Part shown: positions 6,431-32,228 of the stretch, piece after piece | Numbering within the stretch: position 1 is the first letter of the stretch | Layout of the letters: the number at the start of each line of letters is the position of its first letter | Source of the DNA: a virus | IMG/VR virus record: IMGVR_UViG_3300035698_027846 | Span: 1 to 34,428 of that record | Length of the DNA stretch: 34,428 bases | Direction: 5' to 3' (one strand) | Translations under genes and position numbers: made by a program | Notes under the pieces: model-generated | What the model was told of the DNA's origin: nothing | Databases searched by the model: none | The model's input: the letters and a program-made list of their open reading frames with translations, nothing else

Positions 6431-7616
6431 AAGTCGGGCAAATTTTTATTTCCTTCTTAAAAACCTCTTGTTGTTTTCTTGTTTCATTTATTTGTTTTTT
6501 TATTGGCGAACTCATTTTTTTGTTAATTTTCATTGAATTTAATACATTTTCTGTGTTATTGATCTTTGTTTCAATTTTTTCTTTACTTTCAATTCTTGTG
6601 AGTATCTGTTTGAGACGTTTTTGAGCTTGATTGATATATTTGTATCTCTTTCTGTTGCAATCGTTCAAAACAGAGCTTGAAACAGTTTGATTTATACTGT
6701 CAGCTCTAGATTTTATATCCTGTTTGTTTTTTATTAGAGAAGAAATTTCAAACAAACAAGATTCAATAGTTTCGGTATCTAAAGTAACATGTTTTTTGTT
6801 TTCTTCTACCTTTGTTATTGTTTCTTGAATATCATTGATATATAGTTTCTGAACTTTGTTTTTTGAGATATATTTAAATATATCTTCAAGATCTTTACCT
6901 GCCCTTTTAACATTTTTCAACCAAGATAAATCTTCATCTATGGATGATATATTGAGTAAAATATCATCTGTTTTTTTGTACTTCTCATTTATTTCTTCAA
7001 TTTCTTCTTCCATTTTTTCAGTCAAACAAAGTTCTCTTTCTGCTTGATCTACCCATGAGAGTTCTTCTATTTTCTCCTTGGTTTCTTTTATAGAACTTTT
7101 ATTTATTTTTATTTTAGTTTCAATATTTGTCACTTCTGATTTTGCAATTGTCAGAGCTTTATCCATCACTCCTAGTCCAGCAACCTGATTGAATTCTTTT
7201 GCAACTTTTCCTGGAGATTTATCAAGTAGGAAAAATTGCTCTATCTGCTTCTGGATATTAATTGGTTTTATTTTAGAAATCTTTTGTACTTGTTCAGGAG
7301 ATACTAACTTTTTTAACGCTTTTAATGGATTTTTGTGATCATTATTTATTATATATTGATTATGTGTTTTATTTTTTTCTCTTCCAATAGTTCCATCAGT
7401 TGTTCCAACATTTACAACACATAATTCTTTTGGTTTTTTAAATGTTGAAACAAAAGGATCTCCAGCAGGTTTATTGTTGAAATTCCAATCTAGAGCTTTC
7501 ATAATACTGCTTTTGCCATGACCTGTAGTTCCAGTAATAACATTTACCCCTGGAACAAAATCCAAACGTGTATCTTTATGCCCTTCAAAATTTTTCAACT
7601 CTATATAATTAATCAT
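6414..7616 (-). CDS. SbcC/Rad50-like ATPase, N-terminal half ending at the zinc hook
   Basis: Four hundred residues beginning with the N-terminal lobe of a Rad50-type ATPase: YIELKNFEGHKDTRLDF, then Walker A GTTGHGKSS (29-37), a Q-loop region, and a long coiled coil from about 160 to 385. It ends abruptly seven residues after the start of a CxxC zinc hook (Cys393-Pro-Thr-Cys396). In ordinary SbcC/Rad50 the hook sits mid-protein, followed by the returning coil and the second ATPase lobe. Here those lie in separate genes downstream (5060-5311 and 4468-5079). Two such proteins could still dimerise through the hook. It is translated from an ATG overlapping the stop of the small upstream gene. Confidence 0.9.
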   Translation of the reverse strand: MINYIELKNFEGHKDTRLDFVPGVNVITGTTGHGKSSIMKALDWNFNNKPAGDPFVSTFKKPKELCVVNVGTTDGTIGREKNKTHNQYIINNDHKNPLKALKKLVSPEQVQKISKIKPINIQKQIEQFFLLDKSPGKVAKEFNQVAGLGVMDKALTIAKSEVTNIETKIKINKSSIKETKEKIEELSWVDQAERELCLTEKMEEEIEEINEKYKKTDDILLNISSIDEDLSWLKNVKRAGKDLEDIFKYISKNKVQKLYINDIQETITKVEENKKHVTLDTETIESCLFEISSLIKNKQDIKSRADSINQTVSSSVLNDCNRKRYKYINQAQKRLKQILTRIESKEKIETKINNTENVLNSMKINKKMSSPIKKQINETRKQQEVFKKEIKICPTCGQKF

Positions 7617-12122: not shown

Positions 12123-12548
12123 TCACCTAATTTGAAATTTACCTTCTTGAATACTTAAATATTTAATATCTTCATATGATTCCATGTATCTACTAAGATT
12201 TACTCCGACTGTTATTAATTGTGCAATCACGTCTTCTTTATTTATTTGAACAGTTGTAGTTCCAAAATTTCTTAAAATAATTCTTATTTCTTCTGTATCT
12301 CCATAATTTATAATTCCCGAATTTGATACCTCTACATTTTTTTCCATTGCAAAAAACTTATTTGATTTTATTATTCCTACGTAACTTTTAGGAATACTTA
12401 TATGCAAACCTGTAAAAATCACACATCTATTCATAGCAAAAATATCTATATCATAAGGACATAAAATATTTAAATCAGCACTATCATCAAATATCTTTAT
12501 TAGATTATTTCCTTTCAAAAACTCTACATCATTTATCATTTTCATCAT
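12123..12548 (-). CDS. dUTPase-fold protein with altered active site
   Basis: A 141-residue protein of the trimeric dUTPase/dCTP deaminase fold. Motif 1 is SADLN (23-27), then a TGLHISIP strand, a motif 2 equivalent around IIKSNKFF (59-66), motif 3 around SGIINYGDTEEIRI (77-90) and motif 4 KEDVIAQLI (104-112). In motif 3 the conserved GxIDxDYxG reads GIINYGDTE, so the catalytic Asp appears to be Asn81, and motif 2 has Lys for Arg. The Gly-rich motif 5 that closes over substrate is absent. It may be inactive, altered in specificity, or regulatory. The position in the nucleotide/replication block fits removal of dUTP if active. Confidence 0.8.
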   Translation of the reverse strand: MMKMINDVEFLKGNNLIKIFDDSADLNILCPYDIDIFAMNRCVIFTGLHISIPKSYVGIIKSNKFFAMEKNVEVSNSGIINYGDTEEIRIILRNFGTTTVQINKEDVIAQLITVGVNLSRYMESYEDIKYLSIQEGKFQIR

Positions 12549-14030: not shown

Positions 14031-14060
14031 TTCTCCCTTATTCTCCCTTATTCTCCTTTA
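14031..14060. repeat. Three 10-bp tandem repeats carrying Shine-Dalgarno cores
   Basis: The plus-strand unit TTCTCCCTTA occurs at 14031-14040 and 14041-14050, and TTCTCCTTTA at 14051-14060. On the minus strand each unit reads as a ribosome binding site (AAGGGAGAA). The last unit also encodes the end of the clamp loader, whose TAA stop is at 14048-14050. Gain or loss of a unit would shift the clamp loader's end and the spacing to the next ATG at 14019. Confidence 0.75.
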
Positions 14061-14995
14061 ATGATTGTATAACAAGCAAGTGTAAGACCAGCCTTACCTG
14101 AAGATACAAATGGTTCAGAGAAGGCTTCAATGATTTCTGCTGCGGATATTTTACCACTGTTTAACAATACTGTGTTAAAATATCCAAGAATTGCCCACCT
14201 GCATGACTCAGGATCATTTTTTATTGATTTTAGAATTTTTGCAATTTCCTTCCATGAAGATTTTTTCATTAATCCTTGACATAAACTCTTTATATTCTCA
14301 TCCTCTGCGCTGCCAGAATAGTTAGATATAATTTTTAACTGTTGTTTATCATTATCTACATTTAAAACCTTTTCCAATAATGATAAAATCTCTCTTGGAA
14401 TTCCATCTGCTTTTTTAGAAATTTCCTTTATAGTATCTTTAGAGATTTCTTTATCTTCTTTTTCAAGAATGCTTTTTATGAATTTTCTTGAAACAATAGG
14501 TGCCAATGGAGAAAATGTGAATTGAGAACATCTTGAAATAATAGGTGATATTAGTCTTTCAGGGTTAGTTGTGCAAAGAATGAAATATGTATTCTTTGGT
14601 GGTTCTTCTAAAATTTCCAATAAAGCATTTTGAAAAAACTTATTTGCCCCCTGAATTTCATTTAAAACAACTACATTTGATCCCATATCCCTTGGTAAAT
14701 ATTGACAGCCATCTATAATTTTTCTTGCATCATCAATTCCTCTAGCATCTGAAATATTTAATTCCATCAACCCTATGGATGATGCACCTAATTCTCTTGC
14801 CATAATTCTAGCACAAGTTGTTTTCCCACAACCTCTTGATCCTTGTAGAAGAAAAGTAGTTACTTTCTTTTCTTCTACAATCTTCTCTAATGAAGAAATT
14901 TCTTCAGTGTTTCCGAATATTTCACTGAACACTTGTGGACGAAATTTCTTTGCCATTGATAATTCTTGTGTTTTTATTTGTTTAGATTTTTTCAT
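14048..14995 (-). CDS. Clamp loader ATPase (T4 gp44-like / DnaX-like)
   Basis: An AAA+ ATPase of 315 residues that loads the sliding clamp. Walker A is GSRGCGKT (52-59). The Walker B equivalent is VVVLNEIQ (108-115), where the usual Asp is Asn112 and Glu113 is kept. Sensor 1 is CTTNPE, and the arginine-finger motif Ser154-Arg-Cys is intact. It is preceded by the RPQVFSEIFGN segment typical of RFC/DnaX-type loaders. A separate small subunit (gp62-like) was not recognised in the window. It overlaps the upstream gene by 14 bases and its message runs into the tandem repeat at 14031-14060. Confidence 0.93.
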   Translation of the reverse strand: MKKSKQIKTQELSMAKKFRPQVFSEIFGNTEEISSLEKIVEEKKVTTFLLQGSRGCGKTTCARIMARELGASSIGLMELNISDARGIDDARKIIDGCQYLPRDMGSNVVVLNEIQGANKFFQNALLEILEEPPKNTYFILCTTNPERLISPIISRCSQFTFSPLAPIVSRKFIKSILEKEDKEISKDTIKEISKKADGIPREILSLLEKVLNVDNDKQQLKIISNYSGSAEDENIKSLCQGLMKKSSWKEIAKILKSIKNDPESCRWAILGYFNTVLLNSGKISAAEIIEAFSEPFVSSGKAGLTLACYTIIKGE

Positions 14996-16269: not shown

Positions 16270-19200
16270 TTAAAATGGAATTAATCCTTGTCTTATTTTA
16301 CTGAAAAAAGTTTTACATGTATCTTCAAACAGTTCTGCATTATGTGAATTATATAAAACACTACTTGGATGAATACAAAACATTACCCAGGCCCCTAATT
16401 TTTCAATCCAAATAAATTTACCAGACCTTCCCATAACACCTTTGTCAATATCTAAAAAAGCAAATAAACTAGTGTTTCCAAAAGCTAGAATAAAGTTTGG
16501 TTTAATTATTTTTATCTCATCTAATAAATTCACTAAACAAGTTTTTATTTCTTTTTTACTTGGTGTTTTTGTTTTTGACGGAAAACATTTACAAATATTA
16601 GATAAATAGAAATCATTTCTATTGAAATCGTAAATATTAACCTCTCTCCATAACACTTTTCCTGATTTTCCTATAAAATGCTGACATTCCTTGTCTTCTT
16701 CTTTTCCTGGGGCTTCACCAATAATCATCACGTTATATTTACCAGAAGATACAGGCACAGGTTGAGTGCATTGGTTTATCAAATCACAACCACTACATTC
16801 AGACATGTTGTTGAACTTAACATTACATGTTTGAACTAGACCGTAAGGTTTAAAGTTACAATTTAAAGCGTCTTCGTTTGAAACACATCTGTCTTTAATA
16901 AGGCTGTATAATTTTGGTTTTGTTATTTCTATTTGATCACTGATAGGAAAACTGAAATAACTTTGTGCTGCACTAGGAATTTTATCACTATAAGCTCCAA
17001 CAGCCTCTAGTATCTTTTTTGGATCATTCTCATCCTCCTGTGGTTCTAAATTAAAGAAACCTAATTGTCTTTGTTTTTTCATTTTTGCTGCTTTTATAGA
17101 TGCTTTTTCTCCAAATCCTTTTATTTCTAAGAATGGAGCATAAATTGTATTATCTTTTATTTTCCATTTCAAGGCATCTGATTTACCTATTTTTGGTAGT
17201 TTTATTTTTATATTCTTAGAGAATCCCCATTTAATAAGTTCTTCTTTTTTGTCCTCTTTTCCATATGTCATATTTGCACACAGAAACTCTAATGGATAAT
17301 TAACTTTTAACCAACCAGTTTGGTATCCAATATGAGCATAAGCAACACTATGAGCCAAGTTGAATAAATAACTTGCAGCATTTTCCAATACACCCCAAAA
17401 ACCCTCAGCCTCTTGTTTAGAGAATGTTTTTTGTTCAATGCAACCATTTACAAACATCTCTTTATATGGAAGCATCTCTGAAACATCTCTCTTTTTTCCA
17501 ATGATTTTTCTTATTTTGTCTGCAATAGTGAAAGGTAAGCCTGCCATTTTTGTTATTACGAACATTAAATCTTCCTGAAATATAGCTTGCCCGTATGAGT
17601 TTTTAGTTATCTCCTCATATATTGGATGTAATGGAAGCCATCTCTTGCCGTGTTTTCTTTCTATGTACTCCTTTGCCATTCCACTTTCAAGAGGCCCAGG
17701 TCTAACTAATGCAATAACATCAGCCATATGTTTGAATGATTCAATTCCCATATCTTTTACAAACTTAGTTATATGTGGAGTATTCATTTGGAATATCCCG
17801 GCTGTATTACCATTATTTACCATTTTAAAAACTCTTGGGTCATCAGTTTTTATATAGTTCATATCTGGAATATTATCATCAACTAAATCAGTACATTCTT
17901 TTATAATTGTTAATTGATTCAATCCTAACAAATCAAGTTTCAATAACCCTTGATCTTCAGCATTATATTTTTCCCAATTTACAACTATATGCCCTTTTCT
18001 CTTTGCAAGATTACATTGTCCGGAGGTTGTTAGATCGTATTTTGAAACAATTACAGCAGATGCATGTTGAGAGGCCCCTCTTATAGTTCCTTCTAATTTC
18101 AAAGCAATTTCAATGACTTCTGGATATTTCTTTTGAAATGAGACCCCTTCTAGTTTTTCTAAAACATCTTTTATCCTCTCTTTCTTTTTTATTGCCTTAG
18201 ATAAAATATCAGCTTCTTTTAAAGGAACATCAAAAACTCTTGAAACATCCCTTATAGCTCCTCTACTTTGCATCTTACTAAAAGTTGAAACACCGGAAAT
18301 ATTATTCTTTCCATATTTATTGATTAAATAATTTCTAACTTCTTCTCTTTTGTTATCAGCTATATCAATATCAATATCAGCCATATCACCACGATCTACA
18401 TTAAGAAATCTCTCAAAAATAAGCTTATGAGGAATTGGATCAATAGTGGTTATTTTAAGCAGATATGCAACTAAACTTCCTGAACTACTACCTCTTCCTG
18501 GCCCTACAGGAATATTGTTATCTCTACACCAATTAAGTAAATCATATACAATCAAGAAATAATCAGGTAGGTTTAATTTCTTAATTACATTATACTCCAT
18601 TTTAAATCTTTTATAATATTTTTTATTTTTTTTTATATCTTTTTCAAAAATCTCCTTATATCCAATTTCACATAATTTCTTTAAATTAAAATTGCTTGTT
18701 TTACCCTTGCAAACTTTTGGAGATGGTAATGATATGCTTTTCTTCTCAATCTTGAAGTCACAGCACATTTTTGCCACCAGAAGGGTATTCTTACAAGCTT
18801 GCTTAACCTTCAATAATGGAATATTATGATATTTCTGAAAATTGCTTATAACATAATCTACATCACACAAATATAGATCATCCATACTGAACTTCCATCT
18901 TTTAGAATCGTTCCATTTCTTTTTTGTTTGAATTGCAAGAACAACCTCTTGAGCTTTAGAATCTTCTTTGTTTACATAATGAGAATCGTGAGTAGCTACT
19001 AATTTCACTTTTGTTTCTTTATGTAGTTTCATGCAAAGATCATTAGTGTCTCTTTGTATATCAATATCATGACCCATAATTTCAAGGAATAAATTTTCTT
19101 TTATTTTCTTGTGCAATTTGTGAAAAAAATCTACCCCTCCAGGTAAATTTAAAAAAGAATTAGCACATGCAGTCATAATCACTAAACCATCACTATGCTC

Positions 19201-19566
19201 AAGAACACTTTCAAAACTCATTCTTGGCTTTCTGTAAAAACCTTCTAAATTTGCTCTGGTTAACAAACTACACAAATTCTTCCAGCCAGTTTCATTTTTT
19301 ACAAGAAAGGTGATGTGCCCAGATTTTCCTTTAGATTTTAGATCATTTATTATATATCCCTCACAACCTATAATTGATTTAATTCCTTCTTTTTTACAAG
19401 CTGTTTGAAAATCAATAACTCCGTCAATAGTTCCATGGTCAGTCAAAGCAATAAATTTATGGTCTAATTCTTTTGCTTTGATTGCCATATCAGCCGGTTT
19501 TGATAAACCATCTAAAAGGGAAAACATAGAATGGCTATGTAGATGAGCAAAAGGTATTTTTTTCAT
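16270..19566 (-). CDS. DNA polymerase III alpha fused to family-4 uracil-DNA glycosylase
   Basis: The replicative polymerase, 1098 residues. Order: PHP domain (HLHSHS at 8-13, TDHG at 42-45); C-family core with PGRGSSSGS (near 355), the paired catalytic acids in ADIDIDIAD (near 400) and KLDLLGL (third acid, near 545); a helix-hairpin-helix near 818. The normal OB and tau-binding C-terminus is replaced from about 915 by a UDG-4-like domain: CSGCDLINQC, GEAPGKEED (near 950), then NICKCFPSKTK, AFGNTS and CIHPSS (near 1068). The cysteines could hold a [4Fe-4S] cluster. This would tether uracil recognition to the fork. It starts at an ATGA overlap with the upstream gene. The glycosylase activity is inferred. 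Confidence 0.93.
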   Translation of the reverse strand: MKKIPFAHLHSHSMFSLLDGLSKPADMAIKAKELDHKFIALTDHGTIDGVIDFQTACKKEGIKSIIGCEGYIINDLKSKGKSGHITFLVKNETGWKNLCSLLTRANLEGFYRKPRMSFESVLEHSDGLVIMTACANSFLNLPGGVDFFHKLHKKIKENLFLEIMGHDIDIQRDTNDLCMKLHKETKVKLVATHDSHYVNKEDSKAQEVVLAIQTKKKWNDSKRWKFSMDDLYLCDVDYVISNFQKYHNIPLLKVKQACKNTLLVAKMCCDFKIEKKSISLPSPKVCKGKTSNFNLKKLCEIGYKEIFEKDIKKNKKYYKRFKMEYNVIKKLNLPDYFLIVYDLLNWCRDNNIPVGPGRGSSSGSLVAYLLKITTIDPIPHKLIFERFLNVDRGDMADIDIDIADNKREEVRNYLINKYGKNNISGVSTFSKMQSRGAIRDVSRVFDVPLKEADILSKAIKKKERIKDVLEKLEGVSFQKKYPEVIEIALKLEGTIRGASQHASAVIVSKYDLTTSGQCNLAKRKGHIVVNWEKYNAEDQGLLKLDLLGLNQLTIIKECTDLVDDNIPDMNYIKTDDPRVFKMVNNGNTAGIFQMNTPHITKFVKDMGIESFKHMADVIALVRPGPLESGMAKEYIERKHGKRWLPLHPIYEEITKNSYGQAIFQEDLMFVITKMAGLPFTIADKIRKIIGKKRDVSEMLPYKEMFVNGCIEQKTFSKQEAEGFWGVLENAASYLFNLAHSVAYAHIGYQTGWLKVNYPLEFLCANMTYGKEDKKEELIKWGFSKNIKIKLPKIGKSDALKWKIKDNTIYAPFLEIKGFGEKASIKAAKMKKQRQLGFFNLEPQEDENDPKKILEAVGAYSDKIPSAAQSYFSFPISDQIEITKPKLYSLIKDRCVSNEDALNCNFKPYGLVQTCNVKFNNMSECSGCDLINQCTQPVPVSSGKYNVMIIGEAPGKEEDKECQHFIGKSGKVLWREVNIYDFNRNDFYLSNICKCFPSKTKTPSKKEIKTCLVNLLDEIKIIKPNFILAFGNTSLFAFLDIDKGVMGRSGKFIWIEKLGAWVMFCIHPSSVLYNSHNAELFEDTCKTFFSKIRQGLIPF

Positions 19567-20405: not shown

Positions 20406-20479
20406 TGGAAGCAGAATCTGGAATTGAACCAGAATTTTTAGAATCAAAATCTAAAGTCCTAACATTGGACGATTCTGCC
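20406..20479 (-). tRNA. tRNA-Gln (anticodon UUG)
   Basis: A full cloverleaf can be drawn on the minus strand. Acceptor GGCAGAA/UUCUGCU (first pair G-U), D-stem GUCC/GGAC with a short seven-base loop, anticodon stem UUAGA/UCUAA with loop UUUUGAU (anticodon UUG, reads CAA and CAG), a four-base variable region, T-stem UCUGG/CCAGA with loop UUCAAUU, then discriminator U73 and an encoded CCA. It sits between the sliding clamp and the small frameshifted gene. The short D-loop and U73 (bacterial tRNA-Gln usually has G73) are unusual. It would raise supply of a Gln codon favoured in this AT-rich genome. Confidence 0.9.
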
Positions 20480-20502: not shown

Positions 20503-21495
20503 TTATTGTATTTTATAAACCATAGTTGTAATTTGATTTCCGAAAAATACAACAAAAGAATCTTCATTGCAGAAATAATCGCTAATAGGAGCAACAGCTT
20601 TTAAATATTTTTGAGATAAAATAAAACTATCCATTTTTGTTTCAAATGGAACTGATTTCTTTATTTCTCCCTTTGCGTTATCAGATGCCAGTATCATCTC
20701 TCCTTTTCTAAATTTAAATGAGATACTATCAATACCCATATCTGAATCTATAAATATGCCGGACTCTTCTATAATACTTTTAAATTCTTCTGGAAGATCT
20801 ACTTTTTCATTCTCAATTTTATTAAACTGTTCAACTATTGCTTCTGACAGTTCAGTAGGTTCTATTTGTCTAACTCCAATTGTTGAATCTCCTGAACTAA
20901 AAAATGCCCAACCTTCGTTTACTGAATATTTTATAGGTGCAAACAATTTTAAAACTGGAAAGAATTCTACAGGAAACATCATGTCATCTATTTCTTCATC
21001 AAACTCAACTTTTGCTACCATTTGATTATTTGTAGTGAAAACATTATCTTTTTGCACAAAAAAACAATATCTCTCTGGATTTTTCTCATCTTTAGATGAT
21101 GCAAATTTAGCTTTTCCTAGAGCCTCTACAAAATCTATAGGAAGCTCTTTAAATTTCTTTGGAATTTCAGGAATGTTATCTTTTTCTATCTCTTCTGTAT
21201 ATGACAATCTTGCTTTTACTGATTTAGATGTTACAGACAGGAATTTCTTCCCTAGTTTTAATGTAAGATCATTTTCTTTGTTGTTATTAATTATTTTAAA
21301 TAATTCTGGAGCTACACCAAATTTTCTATCAGTTTGTGTATCTGTTTTATGAAACAAAAAGGAAATTTCGTTCATAGCTGCAATCCCATCTGGAAAAAAA
21401 CTGATATTACTAAAACTTGGAAACGGGCTGTTTTTCTTTGTTATCAATGCTGATACTTCTAAAATATGGTTAATATCTTCTTTCTTAAACTCCAT
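20503..21495 (-). CDS. Sliding clamp (DnaN/beta-clamp-like)
   Basis: The processivity factor of the polymerase. About 330 residues with three repeats of the clamp fold; the last repeat shows the typical SFILSQKYLKAVAPI and SFVVFFGN pattern. I choose the ATG at 21495 (MEFKKEDINHIL) because an ideal ribosome binding site, GGGAG, lies just upstream. The longer GTG start at 21510 would place that site inside the coding sequence. It follows a tiny coupled frame and is followed, seven bases past its stop, by the tRNA region. Clamp loader and polymerase in the same operon block support the role. Confidence 0.85.
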   Translation of the reverse strand: MEFKKEDINHILEVSALITKKNSPFPSFSNISFFPDGIAAMNEISFLFHKTDTQTDRKFGVAPELFKIINNNKENDLTLKLGKKFLSVTSKSVKARLSYTEEIEKDNIPEIPKKFKELPIDFVEALGKAKFASSKDEKNPERYCFFVQKDNVFTTNNQMVAKVEFDEEIDDMMFPVEFFPVLKLFAPIKYSVNEGWAFFSSGDSTIGVRQIEPTELSEAIVEQFNKIENEKVDLPEEFKSIIEESGIFIDSDMGIDSISFKFRKGEMILASDNAKGEIKKSVPFETKMDSFILSQKYLKAVAPISDYFCNEDSFVVFFGNQITTMVYKIQ

Positions 21496-21541
21496 AAAAT
21501 CGTCTCCCACTTAAATATTTACTTTCATATTTACCTGCCAT
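21485..21541 (-). CDS. Possible 18-residue coupled peptide
   Basis: ATG at 21541 touches the stop of the 21542-22201 gene (TAAATG) and the frame runs MAGKYESKYLSGRRFYGV to TAA at 21485, overlapping the clamp start. It fills an otherwise unused stretch and contains the clamp's ribosome binding site. It may be a coupling device rather than a functional peptide. Weak support. Confidence 0.25.
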   Translation of the reverse strand: MAGKYESKYLSGRRFYGV

Positions 21542-30200: not shown

Positions 30201-32228
30201 TTAGAATTTAATTTTAATAACTCTGTTAAAACTTCCTGAAACTCTGCAATAAATGTGATTTCTTTTAGTACTAGAAAAACCAAGTCCACTTAATTGATTA
30301 TCGGTTTCCTGTGCTTTCATTTCATTACCTAAAACTTCAAATACTTTTCTATGTTCTCTTAAATCCTCCTTTAAGAATTCGTTAAAAAATCCTCTTGCTG
30401 ATTTGTCACTCTTACAGCCATTTATTATAAAGAAATAATGCTTATTTCCTGTTTTGTTACCATCCCAATAATTAGGCGAGTTCATAATCATTGATACATT
30501 ATGGAATTTCTGTGTTTGAATACCCCAATTTTCTTTGGACACTTTATTTGAAGGAATAGATTTGATTATTTTTAAATCACCTTCTTTTGAATATTTAAAA
30601 CTTGCTACAAAAACTTTTCCAACTACCTTCTTGTTGTAACTAAAACTATGAATTTTGTTATTATGTTCAATCTCTATATCAAAACCAATATCTTTATTTT
30701 CTCTTGGAGTATAGTTATCAACATATAAATTATAAACACCTTCTTGAATTTGTTTCTTACTTAACCATGAAATATTCTCAACTGCTGATCTTGATTCATT
30801 AGGGTCTACATTCATATCAACATCAAGAATTCCAGAAGAGTTTTGCCTTATTCCTGCTTTAGGAAAATGAATATGATTTCCATTAGGCTCATGTACATGA
30901 ATATCAAGATCATCAAAATTAAACCAAGAAAGAGAACATCTTAATATTCCTTCTACATTACCTCCAGCTTTCTTTACTCTATTTTTAATAGAATCAGTAA
31001 CATCTCCTTTATATCCCCATGAAAAATTATTATCCCATTTGAAAATATTTTTTGAGTCTTTATTTACAGGAGAAATTAAGCTCATTAAATTATTTTCATG
31101 AGAATTTTCAAATAGAATCTCTATACTGTTTGTTTTTGGCAAAATATTATTAATAAAAGTATCTACATTAACAGTATCTACTTTATTTAGATTTTTTATA
31201 TTTTCAGGTGCTTTTTCAACAAGATTGTCAAAGATATTTTCTACTTTTAACTCACCTTTATGATTTTTAAGATTACGATTTACAAAAAGAAGATTATTAA
31301 CAGTTATATCATTAATATTTGCATATCTCCTACTTAAAGAATCTTCAATATTCAATTCTATTACTTTTTCTCTGGCATTATTAATCATTTTTTTAGATAC
31401 AATTGCTGTTGGCCTTTTATAATTCAATGGAGCTACTTTAGACTCAAACTTCTTAACAGCTACATCTAGATCAACATCATCTGAAATATCAATCAATAAT
31501 GTCCCTATTGCTGTATTTCTTATATTTGATATTGGGCTTGATTCTTTAACAATATTCCAGCAAAAAATATCTTTATCATCACTTATAACAAAACTGTCAA
31601 AAAGATTTTTCATCCAAACAAAATCTTCAATAAGAGATTTATTTTCCTCTCCTCTGTATATAGATCCTTGTCCAATAAGTTCTCTGACAGTTTTGGCTGC
31701 TTCAAGTGATATTTCAGTCAATCCTCTTTTTAATGTACCCTTATTTGTTCTAAGAATTCCTTGGGTTGTTCCAATAGAATCCTTATTAGAAACAAATCTT
31801 TCTGGTATATCTAAATAAAAATGCTGGAACTTAACACTTTCATCTTTTATTCTTGCAAGATTAAAATCTGTTCCAACGCTATTTTCGTAATGCAGAAATG
31901 TATCTTTTATTTTTTTAGACTTTACAAGAGTCGATAAAGCATCTGATACAACTTGATAATGTCCACCTATTTGAATATCCCAAATTGAAACCAAGTCATT
32001 GTCGGAAATTGATACGATATTTCCACAAGTTCTGATAAATTGTTTGCAACATTGGCAATCATGTTCTCTACGTTCTCTAAATATCTCATTTGTGCCATCT
32101 GGAAAACTATCTAAATAAGTGTTCCATAAAAGATCCTTGTCTAGATCAACCAAAAATAATCCAGCTTCATTTTTAGACATCTGTTTAAACTGTTTCTGTA
32201 TCTTTGTTTTGAAATCACTGAAAACCAT
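30201..32228 (-). CDS. Large conserved phage protein with DUF2135-like C-terminal region
   Basis: A 675-residue protein. The N-terminal 60 residues carry LWNTYLDSFPDGTNEIF and then REHDCQCCKQFIRTCG, a His-Cys-Cys-Cys cluster of possible metal-binding type. The middle (about 90-400) is helical. Residues about 410-560 look like a DUF2135/YfaP-type beta-sandwich: LRCSLSWFNFDDLDIHVHEP, then GILDVDMNVDPNES and EGVYNLYVDNYT. The last 110 residues include HYFFIINGCKSDKSARGFFN and HRKVFEVLGNEM. I know similar proteins in phage early regions but no established function. It is cotranscribed with the 129-residue protein. The beta-sandwich could bind sugars or peptides; this is inference. Confidence 0.75.
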   Translation of the reverse strand: MVFSDFKTKIQKQFKQMSKNEAGLFLVDLDKDLLWNTYLDSFPDGTNEIFRERREHDCQCCKQFIRTCGNIVSISDNDLVSIWDIQIGGHYQVVSDALSTLVKSKKIKDTFLHYENSVGTDFNLARIKDESVKFQHFYLDIPERFVSNKDSIGTTQGILRTNKGTLKRGLTEISLEAAKTVRELIGQGSIYRGEENKSLIEDFVWMKNLFDSFVISDDKDIFCWNIVKESSPISNIRNTAIGTLLIDISDDVDLDVAVKKFESKVAPLNYKRPTAIVSKKMINNAREKVIELNIEDSLSRRYANINDITVNNLLFVNRNLKNHKGELKVENIFDNLVEKAPENIKNLNKVDTVNVDTFINNILPKTNSIEILFENSHENNLMSLISPVNKDSKNIFKWDNNFSWGYKGDVTDSIKNRVKKAGGNVEGILRCSLSWFNFDDLDIHVHEPNGNHIHFPKAGIRQNSSGILDVDMNVDPNESRSAVENISWLSKKQIQEGVYNLYVDNYTPRENKDIGFDIEIEHNNKIHSFSYNKKVVGKVFVASFKYSKEGDLKIIKSIPSNKVSKENWGIQTQKFHNVSMIMNSPNYWDGNKTGNKHYFFIINGCKSDKSARGFFNEFLKEDLREHRKVFEVLGNEMKAQETDNQLSGLGFSSTKRNHIYCRVSGSFNRVIKIKF

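Follow-up and report, generated by a model that had tools for sequence, protein, structure and literature searches.

Why should the replicative polymerase of a virus end in a uracil-DNA glycosylase domain? The question is raised by a gene on the minus strand of a 34,428-base virus record, a genome fragment (IMG/VR record IMGVR_UViG_3300035698_027846; hereafter the window, meaning this whole stretch), whose product of 1098 amino acids (aa) joins a DnaE-type DNA polymerase III alpha to a C-terminal family-4 uracil-DNA glycosylase (UDG). Judging from sequence, we think that the fused UDG is probably active, and we give a probability of roughly 0.6 to the fuller reading that it is held at the sliding clamp and clears uracil from DNA that has just been copied, in phages that have no working dUTPase.

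A DnaE polymerase ending in a uracil-DNA glycosylase

The open reading frame (ORF), first proposed in a sequence-only reading, is real: the plus strand has many stops over this region, and the minus strand is open through all 1098 aa. Pfam gives the domain order PHP, C-family polymerase core (DNA_pol3_alpha, residues 295-548), fingers (552-712) and UDG (945-1081), and the catalytic Asp residues 397/399/401 and 545 are kept. The protein has all that defines a DnaE-type C-family polymerase, namely a PHP domain, a Pol3 core with three catalytic Asp, and fingers. The TIGR00594 polc profile scores 730 bits (cut-off 434), with a match that ends at profile position 840 of 1022; beyond it, the HhH match is weak (PF14579, E=0.16), and neither Pfam nor NCBIfam finds an OB or tau-binding domain in the fusion protein. 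Because the polc match stops there and no OB or tau-binding domain follows, we conclude, as that reading had proposed, that the UDG tail replaces these domains: DnaE1 has an OB and a tau-binding C-terminal domain (CTD) after the HhH, and the window's protein has the UDG at that place. An assembly chimera is excluded, since the identical architecture is also found on about 20 independent contigs.

The identity of the tail is confirmed by sequence, fold and residue content. The Pfam UDG match (PF03167) has E=1.3e-25 and 90.6 bits, against a cut-off of 24.3 bits, and NCBIfam family-4 UDG models cover residues 919-1083 with E-values of about 1e-31 to 1e-30, although the scores fall short of the models' strict cut-offs. 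The closest solved structures by sequence are the Thermotoga and Thermus family-4 UDGs. An AlphaFold2 model of residues 860-1098 has a predicted local distance difference test score (pLDDT) of 92.1 and a predicted template modelling score (pTM) of 0.88; its top Foldseek match is Thermus 1ui1 (E=2.4e-14, probability 1.00), and 1ui0, 1l9g and Sulfolobus 4zby are also among the best (E about 2e-14 to 4e-14, probability 1.00). Two of the checks suggested beforehand, a profile search and a structure prediction of the C-terminal part, bear out the assignment.

The active site of the tail

Alignment with Tth UDGa and Tma UDG assigns nine functional positions, and all nine residues are present: C924, C927, C994 and C1010, which align with the four Cys of the 4Fe-4S cluster and are its predicted ligands, and E951, F964, N990, K993 and H1066. 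The motifs and Cys cluster named in the sequence-only reading correspond to these residues. In family-4 UDGs, Asn reads uracil, Phe stacks, the Glu main chain and His contact O2, and the Lys of motif 3 supports the uracil-reading Asn (PMC10776899, PMC10359453). The Thermus thermophilus (1ui0/1ui1) and Thermotoga (TM0511) enzymes share with the tail the fold, the four Cys ligands and the GE(A/G)PG, N...K and HPS/A motifs; they are stand-alone proteins, whereas the window's domain, about 30% identical, is fused to a replicase.

UdgX, a crosslinking enzyme, shares the Fe-S family-4-like fold, motif B and the Asn, and was rejected as a model for the tail: motif A reads GEAPG and not GEQPG, and there is no KRRIH R-loop insert. 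In the absence of this loop, hydrolysis is expected, and not covalent crosslinking (PMC10359453, PMC10776899).

With the pocket residues F964, N990, E951 and H1066 intact, the tail might instead be a uracil sensor, which would bind template uracil ahead of the fork and stall the polymerase with little or no excision. Stalling at template uracil has a precedent in the read-ahead pocket of archaeal family-B polymerases (PMC8596578), where a replicase likewise responds to uracil. That pocket is small and excises nothing, whereas the window has a whole glycosylase domain with catalytic residues. Sensing would require neither the catalytic His nor the Fe-S residues, yet both are kept, and we consider a pure sensor unlikely.

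Two kinds of DnaE-UDG fusion

Relatives were collected by alignment scans of viral contigs and by tblastn of phage and plasmid records. The alignment scans were needed, as a scan of the viral contigs with the window's UDG tail as a single sequence gave no match. Together, these searches show that C-terminal UDG tails are common on phage DnaE, with dozens of fusions. This survey, called for in the sequence-only reading, corrects the impression given there of fewer C-family than family-A examples, in that C-family ones are not rare: the fusion was published in 2013 (PMC3919608), and it occurs in isolated phages and 913 plasmid records, mostly with a degenerate site. It is neither rare nor new, and we rejected the idea of a rare oddity.

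The fusions fall into two kinds. In the first, which is the window's clade, 22 of the 30 tails with complete sites have all nine functional residues. The second, degenerate kind comprises 30 sequences that form one clade on DnaE-core trees (Shimodaira-Hasegawa-like approximate likelihood ratio test, SH-aLRT, 98-100). Here the Glu is replaced by Asp in 29/30, and in all 30 the Asn has become Ala, Ser, Thr or Gly, the His has become Asn or Ser, and the third Cys is gone. Cys 1, 2 and 4 still align in 17/30, and Lys is the only one of the nine residues that is universal. Among the members are Rhizobium phages RHEph10, RHph_Y2_11 and B1VFA and an SSU5-like Klebsiella phage; tblastn with tails of this kind further matched Pseudomonas phage nickie, Stenotrophomonas phages, Salmonella phage SSU5 and E. 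coli phages, as well as the 913 plasmid records.

The degenerate tail is still a UDG by fold, as judged from profiles and a predicted structure. Profile comparison with bacterial family-4 UDGs gives a probability of 99.5 (E=9e-23), and a model built from an alignment free of intact sequences (pLDDT 88) matches family-4 UDG 4zby (E=3e-12). For a uracil sensor this cuts both ways. The persistence of the fold in a clade without the catalytic site suggests that binding alone may be useful; the uracil-reading Asn, however, is lost from every one of these tails, which are thus unlikely to be uracil sensors.

A second UDG was found on none of 23 of the 24 contigs searched; the other (G015) has one further UDG match, lying in another frame of 1149 aa. 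For unfused comparison, DnaE and a family-4 UDG are encoded by separate genes in L010 (Moorella phage MTATph1), L197, L232 and L252. Intein-like inserts lie just before the FNKSH motif in three phage DnaE genes (L034, with an ORF of 1801 aa, L002 and L003).

Selection on the tail and origin of the fusion

Across the window's clade, the family-4 residue is found at the nine functional sites with a frequency of 94%, compared with 30% over all columns. When nine UDG columns were drawn at random 5000 times, the number of the 30 clade members that matched at all nine never exceeded 3, against the 22 observed at the real sites. In the degenerate clade the two values are 26% and 25%, which indicates that the active site was released and the domain kept. 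The ratio of nonsynonymous to synonymous substitution (omega, Nei-Gojobori) of the degenerate tails is 0.08-0.37, close to that of the polymerase core, and these tails are therefore not decaying. Within the window's wider group, the pair L025/L026 (L025 lacks the His) has an omega of 0.56 in the tail and 0.23 in the core, pointing to relaxed selection.

Purifying selection on 30 tails without an active site would fit a structural tail, or one that binds DNA or a partner, which now does the work of the OB domain and in which glycosylase activity is incidental. The piecemeal loss of catalytic residues within the window's own clade, set out below, would fit as well. This explanation does not account for the far stronger conservation of the nine active-site positions than of the rest of the domain in that clade, nor for the two lineages that shed the whole tail, and we regard it as quite unlikely.

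A single origin is consistent with the data for every UDG domain that is fused to DnaE. When 133 UDG domains are placed in one tree, a single branch (SH-aLRT 91) separates the 50 found on DnaE from the family-4 UDGs of bacteria, from stand-alone viral ones and from those joined to PolA. On the DnaE-core tree, a single clade of the fused forms with two nested tail-less lineages was not rejected by the approximately unbiased test (p-AU 0.675; L197, L232, L233 and L252, where the UDG and DnaE ORFs are separate, were left out). The constrained tree had a likelihood above that of the free search and implied four changes. These are unrooted quick trees with modest support, and their simplest reading is a single fusion, after which catalysis was lost and, in L022/L023 and L027, the whole tail as well.

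The PHP domain

The PHP metal-ligand positions H8, H10, D43/H44, E69, H84 and C134 are present in the window's protein, as are D194 and H196, beyond the Pfam match. By alignment it carries the nine metal ligands of a PHP exonuclease of the Mycobacterium tuberculosis (Mtb) DnaE1 type. In Mtb DnaE1, the PHP domain uses nine such residues for proofreading and is similar to endonuclease IV (PMC5636811), and another report ascribes an AP-endonuclease activity to PolX PHP domains (PMC6616362).

Relatives with an intact or partly altered UDG keep nearly all PHP ligands, with variation in some at the first His and the TDHG Asp, and members of the window's clade with an altered UDG still keep them. In the degenerate clade, almost all PHP metal ligands are lost and the polymerase Asp residues kept in all 26 sequences examined. 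The polymerases of this clade (L007, L012, L013 and the contigs L031-L091) have two dead accessory sites. The joint loss of the PHP and UDG sites is a single event on the tree, and for this reason it is a hint of coupling between them and not proof. That one polypeptide copies DNA, excises uracil with its UDG and processes the resulting abasic (AP) site with its PHP nuclease, all at the clamp, seems to us improbable.

A proposed glycosylase at the clamp

How could a polymerase do without its tau-binding tail? The window encodes its own sliding clamp and clamp loader, its likely partners (Table 1), together with a DnaB-like helicase, UvsX/RecA, RNase H, a ligase and an Mre11/Rad50 pair. With this replication set, we infer, the polymerase can dispense with a tau-binding tail, which the clamp loader of the phage itself would make unnecessary.

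The stretch that links the HhH region to the UDG contains the peptide QSYFSF (residues 868-873), which resembles a clamp-binding motif. The pattern [YLFM]F-x-F is found at this place in 12 of the 14 alignable clade members, and the tail-less L027 stops exactly after HLFSF. We propose that QSYFSF is a clamp-binding peptide; its position presumably corresponds roughly to that of the internal clamp motif in E. coli alpha. Another candidate, QLGFFNL (about residues 832-838), was set aside, as the peptide conserved in relatives is [YLFM]F-x-F, further on.

If QSYFSF binds the phage clamp, it would hold the UDG beside the newly made duplex. There the enzyme could remove uracil that arises by misincorporation of dUTP or by deamination of cytosine, and host repair, or possibly the PHP nuclease, would deal with the AP site. 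Such an attachment, nearer the duplex, also argues against a sensor of template uracil.

A tethered UDG would serve phages that lack an intact dUTPase. The dUTPase-like protein of the window has, by alignment, its catalytic Asp changed to Asn, its stacking Tyr changed to Asp, and motif 5 missing; its altered active site had been noticed beforehand, and the protein is probably no longer a dUTPase. Among about 30 contigs whose tails are intact or partly altered (about 1.07 Mb), it is the sole trimeric dUTPase match, and no intact trimeric dUTPase was found there; of 11 contigs with degenerate tails (about 1.05 Mb), 6 have an intact one. No dimeric dUTPase match exceeded the cut-off in either group. 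This contrast is no more than suggestive, being drawn from related contigs that are incomplete genomes.

Besides this limit, several observations weigh against an active glycosylase at the clamp. Excision of uracil from the single-stranded template at the fork would be dangerous. The window's tail scores 105.8 bits with TIGR00758, under the curated cut-off of 125.3, and so appears to be a divergent, atypical family-4 member or a sister of the family. The nearest DnaE relative (L016, core 51% identical) has neither the catalytic His nor the uracil-reading Asn, the UDG active site is also altered in L025, L024 and L054, and the tail is absent in L022/L023 and L027. Given these altered or tail-less relatives, catalysis is not essential to this type of polymerase.

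The sequence-only reading had also linked the fusion to the window's dCMP deaminase, which makes dUMP, and ThyX, which converts dUMP to dTMP. This link is weakened: each gene is found on only some of the fusion contigs, and we found no support for a regular coupling.

Might the phage have modified DNA, and the tail read or erase another pyrimidine there, for example uracil with a hydroxymethyl group or some other modification? In some relatives a dCMP deaminase gene adjoins a divergent thymidylate-synthase-like gene, and the structure of the phage phiLo PolA, which has a UDG-like domain, was determined with a modified template (9qhs). The window itself has an ordinary-looking ThyX and no PF00303 gene, and its pocket residues are those of uracil-specific family-4 enzymes, which leaves this reading with only a slim chance. 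The divergent protein (237-278 aa, with SPC and RSWDL..GFPENMGG motifs) is encoded beside the dCMP deaminase in three DnaE-UDG phages (L256:3368-4081 and L257:2760-3530, both minus strand; L258:1821-2654, plus strand) and is possibly a dUMP or dCMP hydroxymethylase. The window also encodes a PF18909 dATP/dGTP diphosphohydrolase N-terminal domain (3492-3887, minus strand, E=2e-11). This family is present, too, in phages whose purines are modified; we noticed no gene resembling PurZ in the window.

Relation to known systems

The architecture is already known. In the extra DnaE of some Yersinia pestis and Salmonella enterica strains, OB and CTD have given way to a PF03167 UDG (Timinskas et al. 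2013, PMC3919608), and the window's protein has the same PHP-Pol3-(HhH)2-UDG order, likewise without OB and CTD. The order PHP-Pol3-HhH-UDG is shared by SSU5-type phage-plasmids and RHEph10-type Rhizobium phages, and the UDG tree is consistent with one fusion event for all of them. The members of these types that were examined lack the UDG residues for catalysis and uracil reading as well as the PHP ligands, whereas the window's clade keeps both. We take the published Yersinia and Salmonella proteins to be of the SSU5 type.

A UDG-superfamily domain is also fused to the replicative polymerase in SPO1-like and other phage family-A polymerases (9qhs of phiLo; L196, L199, L208), which differ in polymerase family, in the N-terminal position of the UDG and in falling elsewhere in the UDG tree. 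An N-terminal family-4 UDG with an intact site is present in many viral ORFs that are about 800-1100 aa long (L196, L199, L208, L213, L226, L235 and others); these are probably PolA fusions. All nine functional residues are present in 11 of 24 sampled N-terminal UDGs of long ORFs, and the motif-3 Lys in 12.

What is new is the extent of the family and its split into intact and degenerate forms. A partial literature search returned nothing on the clade whose active site is intact, nothing on the other clade's loss of catalysis, and nothing on the PHP loss that accompanies it. The C-terminus of a protein long annotated as "DNA polymerase III alpha" gains an identity, and the findings suggest that some viruses may remove uracil right at the replication fork; a uracil-removing replicase, if true, would couple base excision to the fork most directly. 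Intact and eroded UDG tails on the same polymerase offer a natural comparison, and the eroded clade includes the cultivable phages SSU5, RHEph10 and nickie and hundreds of enterobacterial phage-plasmids.

Other features of the window

Table 1. Positions of the fusion gene, its domains and motifs, and associated genes in the window
Feature	Position	Strand	Evidence or remark
dnaE-UDG fusion gene, 1098 aa	16270..19566	-	residue 1 at 19566; stop codon 16270-16272
PHP domain, residues 8-159	19090..19545	-	Pfam PF02811 E=5e-34
C-family polymerase core and fingers, residues 295-712	17431..18684	-	Pfam PF07733 E=8e-79, PF17657 E=9e-39
Linker QSYFSF, residues 868-873, clamp-binding-like	16948..16965	-	between HhH region and UDG
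Family-4 UDG domain, residues about 920-1090	16297..16809	-	Pfam PF03167; NCBIfam UDG_fam4 E=2e-30
C924-x2-C927, predicted Fe-S ligands 1 and 2	16786..16797	-	alignment
Motif A GEAPG, residues 950-954	16705..16719	-	alignment
Motif 3 NICKC, residues 990-994 (uracil-reading N990, K993, predicted Fe-S ligand C994)	16585..16599	-	
C1010, predicted Fe-S ligand 4	16537-16539	-	alignment
Motif B HPS, residues 1066-1068	16363..16371	-	alignment
Sliding clamp (polymerase processivity factor), likely partner	20503..21510	-	phrog_947 E=4e-22
Phage clamp loader, likely partner	14048..14995	-	phrog_5846 E=7e-55
dUTPase-like protein, altered active site	12123..12548	-	PF00692 E=2e-12
dCMP deaminase	3874..4311	-	PF00383 E=3e-19; phrog_174 E=2e-48
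ThyX	2671..3315	-	PF02511 E=9e-44

Three further observations concern other genes of the window, all on the minus strand. A Rad50/SbcC-like ATPase is apparently split among genes (4468-7616) around the Mre11-like gene (5304-6179), with an N-terminal part that ends in CPTCGQKF (6414-7616), a C-terminal ATPase part (4468-5079) and a short coiled coil (5060-5311); a comparable split set is found in the relative L256. A single tRNA-Gln gene (anticodon ttg, 20406-20479) lies just downstream of the clamp gene. Finally, a 675-aa protein with no assigned function (30201-32228; phrog_1735, E=1e-258) is kept at 46-49% identity in Ackermann-type Serratia and Salmonella phages, a Vibrio phage and a Clostridioides phage.

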